This document shows, in pieces, positions 5,200-18,250 of a stretch of DNA of 35,516 nt. Position numbers and translations under genes: made by a program. Within the stretch, counting starts at the first letter, position 1, and every line of letters begins with the position of its first letter. This DNA comes from an uncultured beta proteobacterium. Lineage in GTDB: Bacteria > Pseudomonadota > Gammaproteobacteria > Burkholderiales > Rhodocyclaceae. The notes below the pieces were generated by a model. It searched no databases, was not told where the DNA came from, and was given only the letters and a program-made list of their open reading frames with translations. The DNA is taken from positions 1 to 35,516 of the forward strand of contig CAINHS010000016.1 in assembly GCA_903848955.1 (NCBI GenBank). The letters are read 5' to 3'.

Positions 5200-5295
5200 T
5201 GGCGGAAGAGAGCGGGAGTCGAACCCACCGGGGACCGCATGGCGACCCCTGCCGGTTTTGAAGACCGGCCGCCCCACCGGGGAACGTTCTCTTCC
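5200..5295 (-). tRNA. selC: tRNA-Sec (anticodon TCA)
   Basis: The 96-nt gene has an encoded CCA end (5200-5202), the long acceptor stem GGAAGAGA pairing with TCTCTTCC, and the anticodon loop CTTCAAA with TCA. The long variable arm and the T-arm GGTTCGACTCC are also present. All are diagnostic of bacterial tRNA-Sec. It begins 6 nt after the selB stop on the same strand, so it is probably processed from the selA-selB transcript. Its 3' end faces higBA and a recombinase remnant, suggesting past use as an integration site. Confidence 0.97.
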
Positions 5296-5301
5296 ATGTC
5301 C

Positions 5302-7227
5302 TTACGGGTTCAGCCATGCGTGGCCCGAAGCGGTGCTGCGCAGCACATGCCCGTCACGCACGCGACGAGTGTAGCCGATGCGGTCGAAGAATTCGAGGAT
5401 GTGGATCGCCACCTTGCGCCCGCCGCCGATGCGGTCGCGCAGGTCGGCGGCGCGCGCCGCGCCCTGTTCCGTGTTGAGTGCCGCGACGAGTGCGGCCAGT
5501 TGCGCCACGGCGTCGGCGGTGAAGTAGTGATCATGCGCCACCGGATAGAGTTCGCCGGCGCGGGCGAGGCGGCGGAACAACTGGCGCACCGTTTCCTCGG
5601 CGGTGCCCGAGGCCTGCGCCACGTCGCGCACCCGCGGCGGTCCGGAGGGCGCGGCGTCGAGCAGCGGCTTCAGTACGGCGAACAGGTCGCGGTCGCCGGC
5701 GGCGAGGCTGGCCTGGTGTTGCGGCAGGTGCAGCCAGGCGCGGGAGGCGGCCAGGTGCCCTGCGGCGAGCAGTTCGGCGACCAGGGCATCAAACGCGGCG
5801 CGGGCCAGCGCCGGCAGCGTCAGGCGGCGCAATCGTTCCCGTTCGACGCCGACCATGTCGGGTGCGCGCTGGTGCTCGGTCGCCAGCGCGGCCAGCAGCC
5901 GTTCGCCCAGGGCCTGCCAGCCGGCCGCGGAAAAGCCGGTCAGCTCCGCGCCATCGCGGATCACGCGCAGCGCAGCGTCTTGCCACAGGGCGGCGGCGGC
6001 CTCGCCGGCCAGATTCCAGTTGGCGGCAAAGCGGGCCAGATCGACTCCCGCTGCGGACTGCTCCGCCAGCAGGTGCAGGCTCGTCGCCGCATCGTCGTCG
6101 CCCAGAGCCGCCAGCAGTGCCAGCCGTGCCGGGCTGCGCTTGTGGCGTGCCGGCGGGAAGCCGTCGAGCACACGTCCGCCGGCGATGGTGTGCCGCGCCG
6201 ACGCATCGCGCAGTACGAAGCGGTCGCCGCGCACCGCGATGGTTTCGTGATCCAGCAGTATCTCCGCCAGTCCCGCCGCACCGGGTTCGATCTGATCGCC
6301 TTCGAGCAGGGCGACGCGGCCGGTGATGTCGGCGGCGCCCAGATGCACATGCACCGGCGTCCAGTGCTTTAGCGCCGCCTGCGCGGCCGGCACCTGCAAC
6401 CCGGCCTGGAAGCGTGTCAGAGGTCGTGCCGCGACGGGATCGACGACCCACATGCCGCGCCCGATGTCGGCCTTCTCAAAATCGCCGGTCAAGGCCAGCG
6501 CGCAGCGATCGCCGGCCTGCCCGCGTGCCGCAGGCCGGTCCTGCACATGCAGCGTCTTTACCCGTGCCTTGATGCCGTCGTGCCCTGCCGGAGCAATCAT
6601 TACCGTGTCGCCGGCGCCGATGCTGCCGGAGAAAGCCGTGCCGGTGACGACCGTGCCGATGCCCGCAAGCGAGAAGCAGCGGTCGATGGCGAGGCGGAAG
6701 CGGCCGTCGCTGCGGCGTGCCTGATGCGCTGCGGCGACGGCTTCGAGATGGGCGCGCAGCGCGGCCACGCCTTCACCCGTCGTCGCCGACAGCGCGAACA
6801 GCGGACTGCCCTGCAGTCGCGTGCCGGCCAGCAGCGCCTCGATCTCGCCGCGCGCGGCGCCGATGCGCGCGGCGTCTACCGCGTCGCACTTGGTCAGGGC
6901 CACGGCGCCGCGATGGATGCCGAGCAGTTCCACCAGTTCCAGGTGTTCGCGCGTCTGCGGCATCGGCCCGTCGTCGGCGGCGATCACCAACAGCACGAAG
7001 TCGATGCCGGTGGCGCCGGCCAGCATGTTGTGGATCAGCCGTTCATGCCCCGGCACGTCGACGAAACCGAGCACCGAACCGTCAGGCAGCGGCGTATAGG
7101 CATAGCCGAGGTCGACGGTGATGCCGCGCGCCTTCTCCTCCGGCAGGCGGTCGGCATCGACGCCGGTGAGCGCCTTCACCAGCGTCGTCTTGCCGTGGTC
7201 GATGTGGCCTGCGGTGCCGATGATCAT
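5302..7227 (-). CDS. selB: Selenocysteine-specific elongation factor SelB
   Basis: SelB delivers Sec-tRNA to UGA codons followed by a SECIS hairpin. The 641-aa product starts with the P-loop [17 protein letters not shown], followed by [10 protein letters not shown] (switch I), DVPGHE (G3) and TKCD (G4). A translation-factor beta-barrel region and a winged-helix C-terminal part that binds SECIS RNA come next; [20 protein letters not shown] is one such helix set near the end. The length fits the bacterial family (about 610-650 aa). The start lies 3 nt after the stop of the FccB-like gene, and selC follows after 6 nt, so the three are one transcription unit. The client in this window is fdhA. 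Confidence 0.97.
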
Positions 7228-7230
7228 GAT

Positions 7231-8592
7231 TTAGCCGAAGAGGTCCTCGCGCATGTAGCCGAACCAGCGGAAATCCTCGACGATCAGCTCGGGACGGCGC
7301 TCGTTGTCGTCGATCTGGGTCTGCAGGATGACCTTGCCCTTGTCCTGGAAGTCGCCGATCTTGTAGTCGAACTGGACATTGATGGCTTGCTGCGGATCGG
7401 CGCTGACCCACATGTAGCACAGGTTGTCGGGCAGGCTGTAGGCCGGCTCGCGCCCGGCGGCCCGCTCGGCGATGTAGCGGGCGACGATCTTGGCGTGGCG
7501 GTTGGCGACGTGGCCGGCCTTGGGGTAGAACAGGAACTGCGGCGAGACGATGCCGACGGCATCGCCGATGACATAGACGTCGCGGTCGTCCCTGAGGTTG
7601 AGGAACAGCGGATCGACGCCGCTCCATCCCGTCGGCTTGCCTTCGGCGTTCTTGCCGATGACGCCGGCCTTCCATGCCAGATCGCCGGCCTGGTGCGGGG
7701 CCATGAGGATGGCATGGTCGAACTTGAAATCGCCGGCGGCGGTCTTGATGCGCTGGTTGAAGGGATCGACCTCCTTGACCTGGGCGTTGGGCACGTAGGT
7801 GATCTGGTCCTTGTACAGTTCCTCGAAGGCCTGCCTGAAGCCGAGGCCGATGGGGCGGATGCCGTCCTTGTGGTCGAGGATGGTGATGTGGCCCTTGATC
7901 TTCTTCGTCTTCAGGTGCCAGGCCAGCAGGCAGGCGCGCTCGTAGGGACTGGGCGGGCAGCGCTGCGGCGGCGGCGGCAGGGTCATGACGATCTCGCCGC
8001 CCTTGAAGTCCTCGATCGCCTGCTTGAGGCGGAAGTGCTCGGCATTCGGCACATAGGCGGCGGGGAAGCGCGCCCGCGTGGCTTCGGCGGCGCGGCGGTC
8101 GTTGCCGAACCAGGCCTCGTAGTTGTAGCGGATGCCGGGGCTGAGGATCAGGTAGTCGTAGTCGAGGCTGCCGGCGGCGGTGACCACGCGCTTCCTGTCG
8201 CGCTCGACGGCGAGGATCTCGGTCTGGATGAAGCGGTAGCCGTATTTTTCGGAAACCTTGAGGTAGTCGAAGGTGAGAAAGTTGGTGTCGACCTGGCCGA
8301 CCAGCCATTTGTTGCTCATCGGGCAGGAGAAGAACACCGGATTCCTTTCCAGCACCACCACTTCCAGCTGCGGCGCCAGCTGCCGCAGCTGCTTGGCGGC
8401 GTTGAGTCCGCCCCAGCCGCCGCCGCAGATGACCACGCGCTGCGCCTTGCCTTTGGGCAGCAGGACATCGGTGGCACTGGTGATGAGGAAGGGCGCCGTC
8501 TGGGCCAATGCCGGAGGCATTGCCGCCGCTGCGACCAGGCCGCTCGAGGCGGCGAGAAAATTTCTGCGCGAAGAGCGCGTTTCATGTGTCAT
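7231..8592 (-). CDS. FccB-like FAD-dependent sulfide (selenide?) dehydrogenase flavoprotein, Tat-exported
   Basis: The 453-aa product resembles the flavin subunit of flavocytochrome c sulfide dehydrogenase. It has a twin-arginine signal ([12 protein letters not shown], residues 7-18), the dinucleotide fold [10 protein letters not shown] (53-62) and FFSCPMSN with Cys90 at the site of covalent FAD linkage in FccB. RCPPSPYE (Cys212) and LCYMW (Cys392) match the redox-disulfide positions as I recall them; VIGDAVG (341-347) and an FCSD-type C-terminal domain follow. ATG 8592 was chosen for its GGGAG site and position before the Tat motif. No cytochrome partner (FccA) lies beside it. It is wedged between selA and selB, 3 nt from selB, so a link to periplasmic sulfide or selenide oxidation is possible; that is inference. 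Confidence 0.8.
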
Positions 8593-8647
8593 GCCAACTC
8601 CCGTTTGAAACAACCGCCGCGGAGCGGAAGCCACCGCGGCTTACGAT

Positions 8648-8684: not shown

Positions 8685-10097
8685 TCAGACCGCCGTCCGG
8701 CGCAGCGCCGCGGGCAAGCCCGCCAGCGCCGCACCAAATTCATTTTCTTCACCGGCTGCAAGGCAGCGCAGGTCGAGCAGCAGCGCGCCGTCGCCGATGC
8801 GGCCGATCACCGGTTTTGCCAATGCGCGCAGGCCCTGCTCGATGCGCTTGAGCACGCCGCCCTTCCTGCCTTGCGGCCGGATGGCGAAGCCGGAGGAGGG
8901 CAGGCGCTCGACCGGCAGCGAGCCGGAGCCGATCTGCGACATCAGCGCGACAACATCCACCGTTACCGGCAATGCGGCCAGCGCCGCCTGCAGCACCGGC
9001 AGCAGGCGTGCGGCCTGTGCCGCAATGTCGGCTTGCGGCCGCGTCAGCTGTCGCACCGCGGTGACGCGCAGGTGCAGCCTGTCGGGGTCGCGGTAGAGCG
9101 CCAGCACCGCCTCCAGCGCGGCGAGCGTCAGCTTGCCGACGCGCAGGGCGCGCTTCAGCGGGTTCTTCTTGATCTTCGCGATCAGGTCCTTGCGGCCGAC
9201 CAGGAGGCCCGCCTGCGGCCCGCCCAGCAGCTTGTCGCCGGAGAAGGTGACAAGGTCGGCGCCGGCGGCGATGGCTTCGGCCGCTGTCGGCTCGTGCGGC
9301 AGGCCGTAGGCGGCAAGATCGGTCAGCGTGCCGCTGCCGAGGTCGATGACGAATGGGAGTTGATGCCGGTGCGCCAGTTCCGCAAGTTCGCTTTCGGCGA
9401 CGGCATGGGTGAAGCCGTGTATGGCGTAGTTGCTGGCATGCACCTTCATCAGCAGCGCGCTGCGCGGAGTGATGGCTTCGGCGAAGTCCTTGAGATGAGT
9501 GCGGTTGGTGGTGCCGACCTCGACCAATTTCGCCCCGGCGCGGCTCATGATGTCGGGCACGCGAAAGGCGCCGCCGATCTCGATCAGTTCGCCGCGCGAG
9601 ACGATCACCTGTTTCTTCTGCGCCAGCGTGTTGAGCAGCAGAAACACGGCCGCGGCATTGTTGTTGACCACCGTCGCGGCTTCGGCGCCGGTGAGTTCGC
9701 AGAGCAGGTCATCGACGACATGATCGCGGTCGCCGCGGCCGCCCGTTTCGAGGTCGTATTCCAGCGCGCAGGGACTGCGTGCGGCGGCGATCAGGGCCTG
9801 CACGGCTTCTTCAGGCAGCGGCGCGCGACCGAGGTTGGTGTGCAGCACCGTGCCGGTGAGGTTGAATACCGGGCGCAGCCTGGGCTGCATCTGCGCCGTC
9901 ACGGCGGCGCCGACCCGTGCGACAAGCGCCGCGTCTGCGGGCAACGCGGCGCCTTCCCTGACGGCGGTACGGACCGCTGCCAGCAGGTCGCGGATCGCTG
10001 CAGTGACCACGGCGTGGCCATGGGCGTCGACCAGCGCTGCGAGTTCCGGGGCGCAGAGCAGGCGGTCGACCGAGGGCAACTGGGAGAGTGGGTTCAT
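8685..10097 (-). CDS. selA: L-seryl-tRNA(Sec) selenium transferase SelA
   Basis: SelA is a PLP enzyme that turns Ser-tRNA-Sec into Sec-tRNA-Sec using selenophosphate. The 470-aa product has the usual length. It carries the N-terminal SelA domain ([16 protein letters not shown]), the PLP-lysine segment [17 protein letters not shown] near residue 285, and [17 protein letters not shown] near residue 80. It is the first gene of the minus-strand run selA, FccB-like, selB, selC. The selenophosphate source, SelD, is not encoded in this window and must lie elsewhere. Confidence 0.97.
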
Positions 10098-10294
10098 GAT
10101 TTCACCCGGACCGGGCAGAAACGAGATGGAGTGATTGTAACGGCATCCACGCGGCTTCGCGCGGCAAGCGGAAGATCCGTCTGCGGCACTTGATCCGGGT
10201 CATTCCGCATGGCCGGCAGCTGTGCCAATCTGCCGCAACCCCGTGGGTGCGAGTATCGTAGGGCGCAAGGGCGGTCTTGATCGAGGAAAACGAA

Positions 10295-11029
10295 ATGACA
10301 GCGACGAATGCAGCGACAGATTCAGCGTGGCAAAAAATGCTGGGCATCGAATCGAGCCGGGTCAGCCATCGCGAGCGACTGGTGTCCGCGCTCGGCGGTT
10401 TTGCCGGCCTGCTCGCGGTGGCCCTTGTCAGCCACGCACTTGGCGGCGCCGCAGCGCAGCCGTTGCTGGTCTTTTCCATCGGCGCCTCGGCGGTGCTGTT
10501 GTTCGCCGTGCCGCACGGTGCCCTCTCGCAGCCCTGGCCGGTCGTCGGCGGGCACCTGGTTTCGGCATTGACAGGCGTTGCCTGCGCCCGCCTGGTACCG
10601 GATACGGGGCTTGCGGCAGCGCTCGCGGTAGGCCTTGCCATCGCCGCCATGCATTACCTGCGCTGCATCCATCCGCCGGGCGGGGCCACGGCGCTGGCCG
10701 CCGTTCTCGGCGGCGAGTCCGTGCGCGCCCTGGGCTTCGGCTTCGTCCTGTCGCCGGTGCTGCTCAATGTCTGCGTCATTCTGGCCGTGGCCGTCGCCTT
10801 CAACGCCGTGTTCCCCTGGCGTCGCTATCCCGCCTTTCTGGCACGTCGCGCCGCATCACCGCAAGCATCCGCTGCCGGCTACGCAGCGATTTCACACGAG
10901 GACTTTGTCTTTGCGCTGACGCAGCTGGATTCCTTCATCGACGTCTCCGAAGAGGATCTGTTGCGCATCTACGGTCTTGCCACCGGACGCCATCGTGCGC
11001 TGGAGGCGCAGGCGGCGGCGACCAAGTAG
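10295..11029 (+). CDS. HPP-family integral membrane protein
   Basis: The 244-aa product has the family motif RCIHPPGGATAL in its middle and four to five hydrophobic segments (for example FAGLLAVALVSHAL, LLVFSIGASAVLLFAV and LLNVCVILAVAVAF). A soluble C-terminal tail ends in an acidic stretch (LDSFIDVSEEDLLRIYGL). HPP proteins in plants and cyanobacteria have been linked to nitrite transport; the substrate here is unknown. ATG 10295 is preferred over an upstream TTG because GAGGAAAACGAA precedes it. It is followed after 54 nt by senB on the same strand and may be cotranscribed, which raises the possibility of transport tied to selenium metabolism (inference). Confidence 0.85.
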   Translation: MTATNAATDSAWQKMLGIESSRVSHRERLVSALGGFAGLLAVALVSHALGGAAAQPLLVFSIGASAVLLFAVPHGALSQPWPVVGGHLVSALTGVACARLVPDTGLAAALAVGLAIAAMHYLRCIHPPGGATALAAVLGGESVRALGFGFVLSPVLLNVCVILAVAVAFNAVFPWRRYPAFLARRAASPQASAAGYAAISHEDFVFALTQLDSFIDVSEEDLLRIYGLATGRHRALEAQAAATK

Positions 11030-11083: not shown

Positions 11084-12091
11084 ATGTCCAAGCAGATCGT
11101 CATCGTCACCCCGGCGCTGGCCGATGCCAACAACGGCAACTGGCAGACGGCCCGGCGTTGGCAGCAATTTCTCGCGCCGCTTTACCCGACGCGGCTGGCG
11201 AAGAGCTGGCCCGACGCCGAGGCCGACGGCGACGCGGCGATGATTGCGCTGCACGCGCGCCGCTCTGCGGCGTCAATTGCCGCCTGGCACGCACGTCACG
11301 GCGGCCGGAATCTGGCGCTGGTGCTGACCGGTACCGACCTCTATCGCGACATCGCTGCGGATGCGGCGGCACAGCGCTCGCTGGAACTGGCGCGGCTGCT
11401 GATCGTGCTGCAGGAACCCGGCTTGCAGGCCTTGCCGCCCGCGCATCGCGCCAGGACGCGGGTCATCCTGCAGTCGGCCACGGCGCGTTGCCCGGCGCAG
11501 AAGACATCCCGCCACCTGCGGGCGGTGGCGGTGGGCCACCTGCGCGCGGAGAAGGATCCGGCGACGCTGTTCGCGGCGGTGCGCCTGCTGGCGGAACGGC
11601 CCGACATCCTGATCGATCATGTCGGCGCCGCGCTCGAGCCCGCACTCGGCGCGCAGGCACGCCAGCTCATGGATGCCTGTCCCAACTACCGCTGGCTGGG
11701 CGGCCTGCCGCACGAGGAGGCGCGGCGTCGCATCCAGCGCGCCCATGTCCTGATCAACCCCAGCCTGATGGAGGGCGGCCCGCACGTGGTCATGGAAGCG
11801 GTCTGCAGCGGCACCCCGGTGATCGCCTCGCGCATCGACGGCAACCTCGGCATGCTGGGCGCGGATTACGAGGGCTATTTCGCCCAAGGTAATGCCGCCG
11901 GACTGGCCGCGCTGTTGGCGGCTTGCCGCGATGGTCAGGCGCGGCCGCGCGGCCTGCTGCAGCGCCTCGGCCGCCAGGCGCAGAGCCGGCGGCCGCTGTT
12001 TGCGCCGGAGGTCGAATGCGGCGCGGTGCGGCAACTCGCCGCCGATCTGCTGGCGGGCGGCGCTGCCGATGCGAAGAAGGGAAGGGCATGA
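11084..12091 (+). CDS. senB: SenB-type selenosugar synthase (TIGR04348-like glycosyltransferase)
   Basis: The 335-aa product begins IVIVTPALADANNGNWQTAR (residues 5-24), the hallmark of the GT4-like family TIGR04348. Further blocks are IALHARRSAASIAAWHARH, LVLTGTDLYRDI, VGHLRAEKDPATLF, HVGAAL, YRWLGGLPH and EGGPHVVMEAVCSGTPVIAS. The characterised member SenB makes a 1-seleno-sugar from a UDP-sugar and selenophosphate in selenoneine biosynthesis. ATG 11084 follows TAGGA and gives the family N-terminus. Neither SenA nor SenC is nearby; instead a methyltransferase gene overlaps its stop codon (ATGA). The surrounding sel and fdh genes support a selenium role. Confidence 0.85.
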   Translation: MSKQIVIVTPALADANNGNWQTARRWQQFLAPLYPTRLAKSWPDAEADGDAAMIALHARRSAASIAAWHARHGGRNLALVLTGTDLYRDIAADAAAQRSLELARLLIVLQEPGLQALPPAHRARTRVILQSATARCPAQKTSRHLRAVAVGHLRAEKDPATLFAAVRLLAERPDILIDHVGAALEPALGAQARQLMDACPNYRWLGGLPHEEARRRIQRAHVLINPSLMEGGPHVVMEAVCSGTPVIASRIDGNLGMLGADYEGYFAQGNAAGLAALLAACRDGQARPRGLLQRLGRQAQSRRPLFAPEVECGAVRQLAADLLAGGAADAKKGRA

Positions 12092-12681
12092 ACAAGAGCA
12101 TCGACTTCTTTGACGCGCAATTCCGCGACCAGGTCAGCGCCGGCGAGCTTGCGCTCAATCCGTTTGAGACCATCGCGTTGCCCCATCTTCGCGGCCGGGT
12201 GCTCGATTTCGGCTGCGGCCTCGGTAACCTCGCCGTCGCTGCGGCAAGGCAGGGTTGTTCGGTGCTGGCGCTGGATGCCAGTCCCACCGCGATCGCTCAT
12301 CTGCGCCGCCTGGCGGCAGCCGATGCCCTCGACATAGAGGCGATCGAGGCCGACCTGGCAAGCTACGCCCTGACGGAGGATTTCGACAGCATGGTTTCGA
12401 TCGGCCTGCTCATGTTCCTCGACTGCGCCGCAGCGCATGCCCGCCTGGCCATGCTCAAGTCCCGCCTGCGACCCGGCGGCACGGCGGTGATCAACCTGCT
12501 GGTGGCGGGCACGACCTATCTCGACATGTTCGACGGTGCCGGCTACTGCCTGTTCGGGCGCGACGAACTGCAGGCGAGCTTTGACGGCTGGACGGTTCTG
12601 GACGAGGAGTTCAGCGACTTCGCCGCGCCGGGCGGGACGACAAAGGCATTCGTGACGCTGACGGCGAGGAAGCCGGGCTGA
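12088..12681 (+). CDS. TehB-like class I SAM-dependent methyltransferase
   Basis: The 197-aa product has SAM motif I VLDFGCGLGNLAVAAA near residue 35, an acidic motif II (LALDASPTAIAHLRRL) and IGLLMFLDC. A C-terminal block ending VTLTARKPG resembles TehB, a family that methylates tellurium and selenium oxyanions. Its ATG overlaps the senB TGA (ATGA), indicating translational coupling. The likely role is methylation of a selenium compound, perhaps the selenosugar product of SenB; this is inference from context. The stop abuts the convergent fdhE stop without any gap. Confidence 0.75.
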   Translation: MNKSIDFFDAQFRDQVSAGELALNPFETIALPHLRGRVLDFGCGLGNLAVAAARQGCSVLALDASPTAIAHLRRLAAADALDIEAIEADLASYALTEDFDSMVSIGLLMFLDCAAAHARLAMLKSRLRPGGTAVINLLVAGTTYLDMFDGAGYCLFGRDELQASFDGWTVLDEEFSDFAAPGGTTKAFVTLTARKPG

Positions 12682-13599
12682 TCAGCCGCCCGGCACCAGC
12701 AGCAGGTTCGGCCCGCTGCGGGAGTAACCCGCCTCGTCGACCAGGATGTCCAGCGCCAGCGTCGCAAGGTCGTCGGCCACCGGGTCGACGGCATCCTTTT
12801 CCGCATAGACGATCTTGAGATAGCTTTTGCAGGCCTCGCAGGTTTCGGCGCGCACGGCACCGGCGGCCTTGACGCTGTCGGTTTCGAGATGACGATAGCT
12901 GATGCCTTCGGTGGCATCGCAACTGCTGCATTTGACGCGCACCAGGTTCCATTCGGTGTTGCACAGGGCGCAATGCAGGTAGCGCAGGTTGCCGACCTCG
13001 CCGCCGCCGCGCACCACGCTGGCCACCGGCAGGAAGCCGCAACAGGGGCAGACGCCGGGGACGTCGAGCGCCGCGATTTGACTGCCGCCAAGGCGTGCGG
13101 CGCTGGCGGTCCAGAGCACCTGCAGAGCTGCCGCGACATAGGGCAGCAGCGCGGCATCCTCGCCGTACAGCTCGGTGTGCAGCACGCGTTCGGCCAGCGC
13201 CTCGATGCGTCCGGCATCGAAGCCGCCGAGCCGGGCGAGATCCAGCCGGGCGGCCTGCGGCGCCGCTCCGGCAATGGCTGCAGCGATCTGCCGCAGGCTG
13301 GCATGCCAGGCCGGATCGCGCGGCCAGGACTGGGCCGGCAGCGGCGGCATGCGGTGTTCGCGGGAGCGGGCCAGTTGCGTCGCATCAGGCAGCGCGGGCG
13401 TCGGCAGGGCTTGCAGCGCCTCGTGCTGGGCGCGCGTGATGGCGGCGAGGAAGCGCAGCCAGTCGCCCAGGCTGTGGCCGGCGGCCAACTGATCGAAGCG
13501 CTGCGCGCGGGCGGCGAAGATCGTCGTCGCATCCGGCGCGATGACATGAGGCGGCTCGCTGCTCGACTTGATCGGGATGACGGGTTCAGTGGTTTTCAT
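12682..13599 (-). CDS. fdhE: Formate dehydrogenase accessory protein FdhE
   Basis: FdhE is a cytoplasmic chaperone needed for active membrane formate dehydrogenases; it binds the catalytic subunit and may protect its redox centres. The 305-aa product carries four CxxC pairs in its C-terminal half (CPCCGF, CALCNTEW, CSSCDATEG, CEACKSYL), as in rubredoxin-like FdhE. The N-terminal half is helical and alanine-rich. It is the last gene of the fdhA-fdhB-fdnI-fdhE group, but an intrinsic terminator lies directly upstream. The only GGAG before its ATG is inside the terminator stem, 13 nt away. Confidence 0.93.
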   Translation of the reverse strand: MKTTEPVIPIKSSSEPPHVIAPDATTIFAARAQRFDQLAAGHSLGDWLRFLAAITRAQHEALQALPTPALPDATQLARSREHRMPPLPAQSWPRDPAWHASLRQIAAAIAGAAPQAARLDLARLGGFDAGRIEALAERVLHTELYGEDAALLPYVAAALQVLWTASAARLGGSQIAALDVPGVCPCCGFLPVASVVRGGGEVGNLRYLHCALCNTEWNLVRVKCSSCDATEGISYRHLETDSVKAAGAVRAETCEACKSYLKIVYAEKDAVDPVADDLATLALDILVDEAGYSRSGPNLLLVPGG

Positions 13600-15187: not shown

Positions 15188-18100
15188 TTATGCCTTCTCG
15201 ATGTTGACCAGGAACGCCTTGAATTCGGGCGTGTGGGAATTGGCGTCGCCGACGAAGGGCGTCAGGGTGTTGGTGATGAAGCCGGGCTTCGCCACTCCCT
15301 TGAAACCCCAGTGGATCGGGATGCCGACGGTATGGACTTTCTTGCCATCCACGTCGAGCGCCTTGATGCGCTTGGTGACCACGGCCACCGCCTTGATGAA
15401 GCCGCGGTTGCTGCGCACCTTGACCTTGTCGCCGCTGGCGATGCCCTTCTCCTTCGCCAACTCCTCGCCGATCTCGACGAACTGTTCCGGCTGCAGCACG
15501 GCGTTGATCTTCGCGTGCTTGGTCCAGAAGTGAAAATGTTCGACGAGCCGGTAGGTGGTGGCGACGTAGGGGAAGTCCTTGGCCTTGCCGAACACCTCCA
15601 TGTCCCCCTTGTACACCCGCGCCGCCGGATTGCTGATGACCTTGGGATGGTTGGGGTGGAAGGGATTCCTGTCCAGCGGCGTTTCGAAGGGCTCGTAATG
15701 CTCCGGGAACGGACCGTCGGCCAGAGCCGGAGCGAACAGGCGCGCAACACCTTCCGGATTCATGATGAAGGGCATCACGTTTTCTTCGGGCGCCGCGTCG
15801 GGGCGCATGTCGGGGACGTCGTTGCCGCCCCACTTGTCGCCCAGCCACTTGATCACCGCGCGTTTCGGGTCCCAGGGCTTGCCGGCGACGTCGCATGAGG
15901 CGCGGTTGTAGATGATGCGCCGGTTGGCCGGCCAGGCGAAGCCCCAGTTCAGCGTCTGCCCCAGACCCGACGGATCGGCATTGTCGCGCCGTGCCGTCAG
16001 ATTGCCGGCCTGCGACCAGGAGCCGCCATAGATCCAGTTGCCGCAGGAGGTGGAGCCGTCGTCGCGCAACTGGGCGAAGCCGGCCAGTTGCTCACCGGCT
16101 TTGGCCAGCACCTTGGTCTTGTCCTTGGGATCGAAGACATCGCCCAGCGCCTTGCCGGAGACTTCCATGAGGATCTCTTCCGGCGACGGCTTGTTGGCGA
16201 TGCGATGCGGCCAGGTCAGGTTGAGGATGGGCTCGGGCAGCTTGCCGCCGTCCTTGGCGTACATCTCCTTCAGCTTGAGGAACAGCGAGGCCATGATCTC
16301 GATGTCGCCCTTCGATTCGCCGGGCGCATCCGCCGCCTTCCAGTGCCACTGGATCAGGCGTCCGGAGTTGGTGAAGGAGCCCGCTTCCTCGGCGAAGAGG
16401 TTGGCCGGCAGGCGGAACACCTCGGTCTGGATCTTGGCCGGGTCGGCCTCGTTGAGTTCGCCGTAGGACTTCCAGAACTCGGCGGTTTCCGTCGCCAGCG
16501 GGTCCATGACAACCAGATATTTAAGCTTGGCCAGGCCGTCGCCGACCTTCTTCTTGTTCGACACCGAAGCCAGCGGGTTGAAGCCCTGGCAGAAGAAGCC
16601 GTTGAACTTGCCCTGGAACATGCGTTCGAACATCGCCAGCACGTCGTAGGAGGTGTCCTTCTTCGGCAGCCAGTCGTAGGCGTAGTCGTTCTTGTCGGTG
16701 GCGGCGCCGCCGTACCAGGCTTTCTGCAGGCTGGTGAACCACTTCGGGAAGTTCTGCGGGAAGTTCATCTGGTTCGGCCGCAGTGCCTTCGGCGTACGTT
16801 TTTCCAGATAGGTCTTGCGATCGACGTCCGCATCCAGCGGTGCGCCGATGTAACCGGGCAGGTTGTCCGAGTACAGACACATGTCGGTGATGCCCTGCAC
16901 ATTGGCGTGGCCGCGCAGCGCATTGATGCCGCCACCCGCCATGCCCATGTTGCCGAGCAGGGTCTGGATGATGGCCATGGTGCGGATGTTCTGCGAACCC
17001 ACCGAGTGCTGCGTCCAGCCCAGGGCGTAAAGGATGGTCATGGTCTTGTCCGGTGCCGCCGTTTCGGCGATCAGCTCGCAGACCTTGAGGAAGGCATCCT
17101 TCGGCGTGCCGGTGACCTTGCTGACCAGGTCCGCGTTGTAGCGGCTGTAGTGCTTCTTCAGCAGCTGGAAGACGCAGTTCGGGTTCTGCAGCGTCTCGTC
17201 GACCCTGGCAAAGCCGTCCTTGTCGAGCTGGTACTTCCAGGTGTCCTTGGCGTAGTTGCGCTTCTCGGCGTTATAGCCGGAATACAGCCCGTCCTCGAAC
17301 TTGAAGCCTTCGTCGATCAGGAAGCTCGCGTTGCTGTAGTTCCTGACGTAATCGTGGTGAATCTTGTCCTTCTCGATCAGGTAATTGATGACGCCGCCGA
17401 GGAAGGCGATGTCGGAACCGGGACGGATCGGCGCGTAGAAGTCGGCCACCGCCGCCGAGCGGGTGAAGCGCGGGTCGACCACGGCCAGCTTGGCCTTGCG
17501 GTCTTTCTTCGCTTCAATCGCCCACTTGAAACCGCAGGGATGCGCTTCGGCGGCATTGCCGCCCATCACCAAAATGAAGTCGGCATTCTTGATGTCGACC
17601 CAGTGGTTCGTCATCGAACCACGCCCAAATGTCGGACCCAGACTGGATACCGTGGGGGCGTGTCAGATGCGTGCTTGCGTGTCGAAGGCTACATTGCCGA
17701 GCGAGCGGAGAATCTTGTGGGTGAGGTAGCCGGCTTCGTTGTTGGCGGCGGACGAAGCGAGGAAACCGGTGGTGTTCCAGCGGTTGACCGTCACGCCGTC
17801 GGCATTCTTTTCGACGAAGTTGGCATCGCGGTCCTTCTTCATGTGGGTGGCGATGCGGGTGATCGCGTCATCCCATGAAATGCGTTTCCATTCGCTGCTG
17901 CCGGGCTCGCGCACTTCCGGGAACTTGAGCCGGTTGGGGCTCTTGACCATGTCGAGCAGGCCGGCGCCCTTGGGGCACAGCGAGCCGCGATTCACCGGAT
18001 TGTCGGGGTCGCCCTCGATGTGGATGATGTCCGCTTTCGCGTTCTTGGACTTGTCGCCCGTGGTGTAGATCAGAACCCCGCAGCTCACCGAGCAGTAGGG

Positions 18101-18250
18101 GCACATGTTGCGGGTTTCCGTGGCGCGGGCGAGCTTGAAGCTGCGCACCTCGGCCAGGGCCGACGTCGGCGAGAATCCCATCAGGGCGATGGAAGACCCG
18201 CTCAGGCCGGCGCCGCAGACCTTGAAGAACTGCCGCCGTGTAACTTGCAT
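15188..18250 (-). CDS. fdnG: Selenocysteine formate dehydrogenase alpha subunit (UGA read as Sec)
   Basis: This is the periplasmic molybdenum (or tungsten) bis-MGD subunit that oxidises formate to CO2. The single coding frame is interrupted only by TGA at 17663-17665. Codon 196 is the selenocysteine position of E. coli FdnG, in the context TQARI-U-HAPTV. Total length is 1020 aa (E. coli FdnG 1015). A Tat signal (TRRQFFKVCGAGLSG) starts at residue 4, and the [4Fe-4S] ligands CPYCSVSCG lie near residue 50, followed by NRGSLCPKG. The C-terminal molybdopterin-dinucleotide-binding domain contains VKVRSNRGFIKAVAVVT. GGAGA precedes the ATG. A SECIS hairpin follows the UGA, and selA, selB, selC, fdhE and fdhD are in the window. 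Confidence 0.97.
17620..17665 (-). promoter_or_regulatory. Bacterial SECIS element of fdhA
   Basis: Immediately after the UGA (17663-17665) the mRNA has CACGCCC (17662-17656), which pairs perfectly with GGGCGUG (17626-17620). Inside, an upper stem GG-U-AUCC / GGGU-CC leaves a bulged U at 17649 and an apical loop AGUCU (17644-17640). The bulged U and the loop GU are separated as in the E. coli SECIS (U17 and G23-U24 by my recollection), the contacts used by SelB. Confidence 0.88.

Follow-up and report, generated by a model that had tools for sequence, protein, structure and literature searches.

A methyltransferase family tied to the selenosugar synthase SenB, and a possible SenA-independent branch of its pathway

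We found that the methyltransferase encoded by the gene overlapping senB in an uncultured betaproteobacterium belongs to a family that is tied to SenB at the genome level. This membership is what is new here. The coupling between the methyltransferase (MT) and SenB across genomes is well supported, and the pairing is genuine, conserved in relatives and extends far beyond the window, the 35,516-nucleotide stretch of DNA analysed here.

The overlapping gene pair and its selenium locus

The first gene of the pair, senB (positions 11084-12091, forward strand), encodes a 335-residue selenosugar synthase, a Se-glycosyltransferase of the GT-B type. It is followed on the same strand by the MT gene (12088-12681; PF13649, PF03848), encoding a 197-residue class I SAM methyltransferase of the SenB-associated family. 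Both genes are intact in the window and share the four bases ATGA (12088-12091, forward strand), in which the ATG of the MT gene overlaps the stop codon of senB. The original prediction of a TIGR04348/SenB-type gene overlapping a TehB-like methyltransferase gene by ATGA was borne out by this sequence and by the SenB profile score (TIGR04348, 421 bits, E 2.3e-126), which lies above the curated cut-off of 300.

The selenium island that was predicted around the pair is also present. On the reverse strand, we located selC, the gene for tRNA-Sec (5200-5295, ARAGORN), selB (5302-7227; TIGR00475, 481.7 bits), selA (8685-10097; TIGR00474, 588.7 bits), fdhE (12682-13599; TIGR01562, 283.1 bits), which is convergent with the MT gene, and a formate dehydrogenase alpha subunit gene (15188-18250), named from its sequence and its neighbours. 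The last of these contains an in-frame TGA (17663-17665, residue 196), read as Sec in the context ARIUHAPTVSSLGPTFGRG. An HPP-family membrane protein gene (10277-11029, forward strand; PF04982, 172.6 bits) lies 54 bases upstream of senB; it adjoins senB at none of the 118 other SenB loci of the order and is not conserved there. Scanning upstream for a sigma-70-like promoter revealed none. Between selB and selA lies a reverse-strand gene (7231-8634) for a flavocytochrome c/sulfide dehydrogenase-like flavoprotein (PF21706), the N-terminus of which reads as Tat-like; it matches NF049943, the selenoprotein subtype of type III sulfide quinone reductase, weakly (84.7 bits, against a cut-off of 525).

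Judged by its residues, the window SenB looks active. Among solved proteins it is closest to SenB (8k5u, 8jjq, 8jjn and 8fbx), with alignments of about 320 residues (phmmer against 8k5u, E 8e-115). Residues N19, T22, R154, K157, E230 and E238 correspond to N20, T23, R155, K158, E231 and E239 of Variovorax SenB, the numbering and roles of which are given in the available text of PMC10891094 and PMC10702425, and the equivalents of R155, K158, E231 and E239 are kept in all 134 SenB sequences compared. The window protein departs from the EGGAHV motif in reading EGGPHV (11771-11788), with the named catalytic residues present. Across the compared sequences the motif is EGGA(H/N)V, its H position being variable; A is found in the other 133 of 134, and P solely in the window. 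Such a substitution could alter donor choice. The key residues displayed no signature of MT-bearing genomes when 38 sequences from genomes with MT were compared with 96 from genomes without it. According to the available text of PMC10891094, Variovorax SenB transfers selenium from selenophosphate onto a UDP-sugar, accepts six UDP-sugars and is the only Se-glycosyltransferase identified. SenB was also carried on three plasmid records, NC_010727.1 and NZ_AP014810.1 (Methylorubrum) and NZ_CP044550.1 (Hydrogenophaga), and senB can therefore move; a plasmid search for MT returned no match.

The 'TehB-like' label given to the second protein in the original prediction proved apt. MT passes the Pfam TehB model (PF03848, 48.6 bits; gathering score 20.4), which matched all 62 MT family members (E <= 0.001), but scores below the cut-off of the TehB equivalog TIGR00477 (60.7 bits, cut-off 219.5); 'TehB-like' is thus right and 'TehB' wrong. 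The TPMT model PF05724 had no match in the window MT at E <= 0.001 and matched 1 of the 62 family members (E 4e-4). We used AlphaFold to generate an MT model (mean pLDDT 93); the model and the MT tree draw on 62 chosen MT sequences rather than on all those fetched. The ten best PDB fold matches of the model were all TehB chains, with TM scores of 0.74-0.79 (query length) and 21-25% identity, while lower-ranked matches included the sugar-tailoring enzyme AtmM (6uv6) and a bacillithiol methyltransferase (9ri2). In the profile comparison with TehB, MT aligned from position 34 onwards to its C-terminus (34-194), and the N-terminal signature of the MT family, FFxxQF...LNPFE, falls outside this alignment. 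The GELHRT/GELHKT stretch, which we take to be important for TehB, has no conserved counterpart in MT: the profile alignment shows the five residues that precede HR/HK as an insertion and places HR/HK on variable MT columns. On these sequence and fold comparisons, MT is a TehB relative with its own signature and not a TehB.

Pairing of MT and SenB by position and by genome

We next analysed how often MT lies beside senB in other genomes. In a survey of the bacterial family, MT adjoins senB in 4 of the 47 SenB neighbourhoods, namely the window and three relatives (G187, G401 and G415) from four genera in all; in the order survey, MT was in the senB neighbourhood in 2 of 119 SenB genomes (the window and G187). 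The MT genes of the three relatives lie on the same strand as senB and encode proteins 63-66% identical to the window MT. In G187 MT precedes senB, and adjacency is thus seen in either gene order. Among the best 80 of 215 MT relatives from named genomes, SenB was encoded in the same stretch at five loci (L250, L251, L252, L255 and L280), of which L251, L252 and L255 are the same three relatives. At L250 (Herbaspirillum sp. ST 5-3), 48 bases (measured between aligned ends) separate MT from senA, and senB is on the far side of senA, while at L280 SenB is 2.5 kb from MT, with SenA beyond. In the MT tree, the six linked MTs group within a single region (13 rows, SH-aLRT 85), which excludes the MTs of G506 and G628, two further genomes from the same genus as the window. 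The expectation that the pairing would be conserved in relatives held: it recurs in four genera and is much stronger at the genome level, although strict adjacency is uncommon (4/47; 2/119). Since adjacency alone made a weak test of pairing, we used genome-level co-occurrence instead.

In some genomes, MT sits in unrelated neighbourhoods. No shared neighbourhood of unlinked MTs was dominant, the largest recurring neighbour cluster being present at 11 of 80 loci in a clustering based on a crude gene caller, which recovered MT itself in 63. Automatic ORF clusters contained many antisense ORFs and were kept out of the conclusions. At L240-L242 and L245-L247, the unlinked MT is beside or between genes that, from their sequences, are presumably bamB-like and der-like, a housekeeping neighbourhood. 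Near the sen cluster of L280 (7629-10606), MT comes after what we take to be look-alikes of an ArsR-type regulator, a DsrE-type protein and a PLP sulfhydrylase/lyase; ArsR-type and DsrE-type neighbours each occur at 6 of the 80 MT loci.

Co-occurrence by genome revealed a far closer relationship. In the family survey, SenB was found in 47 of 249 genomes and a strong MT (E at most 3.5e-57, at least 49% identity) in 18, all 18 of which also encode SenB (hypergeometric p 4e-15; here and below, genome- and genus-level p values were computed without species-tree correction). By genus, all 7 MT genera lie within the 20 SenB genera of 68 (p 8e-5). The three family searches (SenB, SenA and MT) were taken as one draw of 249, and G420, with a weak match (5e-13, 41% over 102 residues), was not counted as MT. 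In the order survey, SenB was found in 119 of 399 genomes. A draw of 300 of these contained a strong MT (259 bits or more) in 24, with SenB in 23 of the 24; four f44 genomes with longer proteins scoring about 80 bits were not counted. The one exception, G033, carries MT without a detected SenB, yet SenA is present. With SenB in 90 of the 300, the association gave a Fisher p of 2e-12, on the assumption that the draw corresponds to handles G000-G299, where all 48 listed handles fall, the other 252 being unlisted; the count of 23/24 is independent of this assumption. By genus, all 18 MT genera lie within the 49 SenB genera of 135 (p 1e-9).

Starting from MT loci instead, the record titles of which include Polaromonas, Hydrogenophaga, Ramlibacter, Methylibium, Rugamonas, Massilia and two Deltaproteobacteria, we found SenB in 45 of the 50 genomes reached (44 over cut-off), and five had MT with SenB undetected. 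This set covers 50 of the 80 loci, mostly on longer contigs, and is not random; L251, L252 and L255 were left out because SenB had already been seen there, and L268, L281, L283 and L292 as second loci of a genome. It repeats at least five genomes of the other surveys (G637, G645, G671, G680 and G684, with identical coordinates) and is therefore not independent of them. SenB was counted at E <= 1e-60 in the order, 1e-50 in the family and 1e-40 in the MT-locus genomes.

Placed on a SenB tree built with FastTree, the presence of MT takes 24 changes at fewest, so that MT has often been gained or lost and still stays with SenB. Strong MT was found in 0 of the 202 SenB-negative genomes of the family, although the selenophosphate synthase SelD was over cut-off in 35 of 41 SenB-negative genomes searched, as it was in 19 of 20 SenB-positive ones. 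MT thus follows SenB, not selenium use.

SenA and the selenoneine route

The window is contig C16 of an assembly of 3.6 Mb that is 99.97% complete with 1.48% contamination. The genome encodes a single SenB over cut-off and one SelD over cut-off (TIGR00476, 440 bits, on contig C32), so that selenophosphate synthase is present. Across the assembly, window included, the SenA signature (TIGR04373) had 0 matches, as did the FGE-sulfatase domain, and EgtD (TIGR03438) had 0 matches at E <= 1e-10. The SenA search also returned 0 in control genomes and was over cut-off in 107 of the 399 order genomes; all eight other sampled SenB genomes of the window's genus have SenA. The original prediction held that the linked pair does not feed selenoneine and had set a genome search for senA as one of its checks beforehand. 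No senA was found elsewhere in the genome and, with SenA, FGE-sulfatase and EgtD all unmatched, selenoneine is, judged by gene content, not makeable there by the known route.

Across other genomes the relationship between MT and SenA is looser. Of the SenB genomes of the order, 12 of 19 without SenA and 11 of 71 with SenA carry MT (p 9e-5), raw counts the denominators of which, like the 90/300 above, depend on the assumed draw. In the family, MT was in 13 of 18 SenA-unlinked SenB genomes and in 5 of 29 SenA-linked ones (p 5e-4, also raw counts). 'SenA-less' is here defined by a 50-position signature: SenA was counted with TIGR04373 over cut-off in the order, and with TIGR04373 at E <= 1e-14 in the family (37 genomes, 30 of them over cut-off and G401 just below). 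Independent pairs on the SenB tree, a FastTree tree with long-branch warnings in which G589 was set as SenA-present because SenA lies beside SenB at a contig end, gave the same direction without significance (median p 0.63). Loss of SenA as the driver of MT, which the raw counts favour, is thus given no support by independent pairs and is not claimed here. As MT is also found with SenA, it is not confined to SenA-less genomes.

EgtD was unmatched in 13 of the 16 genomes with MT and without SenA, the window's own included, and matched in G415, G521 and G062; it was matched in all five SenA-bearing genomes searched alongside. Some FGE-sulfatase protein was found in 13 of the 16, and none in the window's own genome. 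In those that carry such a protein, the signature may have missed SenA.

In seven of the 19 SenA-less genomes (G017, G050, G069, G106, G182, G277 and G286), SenB is encoded, but no SenA signature reaches cut-off and MT is absent. These may harbour a further SenB partner, or their SenA may have been missed. In addition, SenA was over cut-off without SenB (E 1e-60) in 10 of the 399 order genomes, including G033, G059, G104, G147, G242 and G275.

A proposed Se-methyl selenosugar

On the basis of these observations, we consider it somewhat probable that MT methylates the selenosugar made by SenB, capping it as a Se-methyl selenosugar, in a SenA-independent branch of the SenB pathway; the acceptor, the product and its use are what we infer. 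SelD, encoded elsewhere in the genome, would make selenophosphate. SenB would then move the selenium onto UDP-GlcNAc, UDP-GalNAc or UDP-Glc, the probable UDP-sugar substrates, generating a 1-seleno-sugar with a reactive selenol, which MT would methylate with SAM. The resulting stable Se-methyl selenosugar would be kept or released, and this branch would end without SenA and hercynine. Methylation of the selenol by MT is suggested by the coupling across genomes, the gene overlap, the resemblance of the fold to TehB and the chemical nature of what SenB produces. Several observations speak against the proposal: MT is present alongside SenA in 11/71 genomes, 7/19 SenA-less SenB genomes have no MT, MT seldom adjoins senB and in some genomes sits in unrelated neighbourhoods, independent pairs give no support to an anticorrelation of SenA and MT, SenB was undetected in G033 and in five of the 50 MT-locus genomes, and the window SenB carries the unusual P in its EGGPHV motif.

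MT might instead be a general selenium- and tellurium-detoxifying methyltransferase of the TehB type that volatilises selenide, methaneselenol or tellurite, with SenB a mere correlate, a role that would be favoured in bacteria handling much reduced selenium. By both fold and sequence, MT is closest to TehB, and it often lies away from senB. We nevertheless regard this as fairly unlikely, given that no strong MT occurs in the 202 SenB-negative family genomes, most of those tested (35/41) having SelD, and that the GELHRT/GELHKT stretch of TehB coincides with an insertion and variable columns in the MT alignment.

It is unlikely that MT acts after selenoneine or on another histidine-derived selenol, forming for example Se-methylselenoneine, and is a relic where senA has been lost. 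MT does occur in 11 of 71 SenA-bearing genomes, and the L250 and L280 loci hold MT, senA and senB together. Against this reading, EgtD was unmatched in the window's own genome and in 12 further genomes with MT and without SenA, MT is commoner without SenA by raw counts (12/19), and in the window both genes of the pair are intact and overlap.

More than one acceptor is compatible with the fold, and the matches to AtmM and to the bacillithiol methyltransferase among the lower-ranked hits would fit an enzyme that methylates the sugar itself at O or N, or acts on a conjugate formed later from what SenB makes, and not on selenium. The free selenol, however, is the most nucleophilic group of a 1-seleno-sugar, and we consider modification elsewhere quite unlikely. 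It is highly improbable that the pattern reflects chance or the shared ancestry of patchy betaproteobacterial accessory genes, with an accidental overlap in the window: although the counts lack species-tree correction and MT is beside senB in few genomes, MT is nested in SenB by genus in two nested samples, despite at least 24 MT changes on the SenB tree, and the six linked MTs share one part of the MT tree.

The proposed capping of the SenB selenosugar can be set beside known selenium systems. Selenoneine biosynthesis by senABC of Variovorax paradoxus has in common with the window a SenB with catalytic and donor-binding residues and a SelD in the genome; here, in contrast, SenA, EgtD and FGE-sulfatase are unmatched, an MT gene lies beside senB, and EGGPHV replaces EGGAHV. 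The tellurite methyltransferase TehB (2xva, 4dq0, 2i6g and 3m70) shares the class I SAM fold with MT (TM up to 0.79), whereas MT is 21-25% identical to it, falls below the equivalog cut-off, has the FFxxQF...LNPFE signature and no conserved GELHRT-type counterpart, and tracks SenB. The mammalian urinary selenosugar, Se-methyl-N-acetylselenohexosamine, is of the same chemical kind as the proposed MT product and is known from animals. The ovoselenol pathway resembles the proposed branch in making a small selenium compound with the help of a SAM methyltransferase, OvsM, which matches MT weakly (9bxh, 19.8 bits, E 0.005). The selenium methyltransferases TPMT and INMT, described in the available text of PMC10844679, belong to other families than MT. 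In the literature covered, including the available text of PMC10891094, PMC10702425, PMC10844679 and PMC13188914, we found no bacterial selenosugar methyltransferase; the 2022 founding SenABC paper, outside this coverage, may discuss other SenB contexts.

SenB was previously known for selenoneine, and the MT family is found almost only with SenB, SenA-less genomes included. A known selenium enzyme is thereby joined by a new SenB-bound partner family, for which we hypothesize the reaction set out above. Quite possibly, the SenB pathway has a second terminus that does without SenA in many betaproteobacteria, where this SenB-dependent family makes Se-methyl selenosugars. If so, SenB would be a selenosugar synthase of general use that supplies two or more metabolites, and selenosugars would be a branch point leading to a second dedicated selenium metabolite common among betaproteobacteria. 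Animals excrete selenosugars, of which this metabolite would be the bacterial equivalent; its existence would also have implications for how selenium is exported and for where selenosugars in the environment come from.
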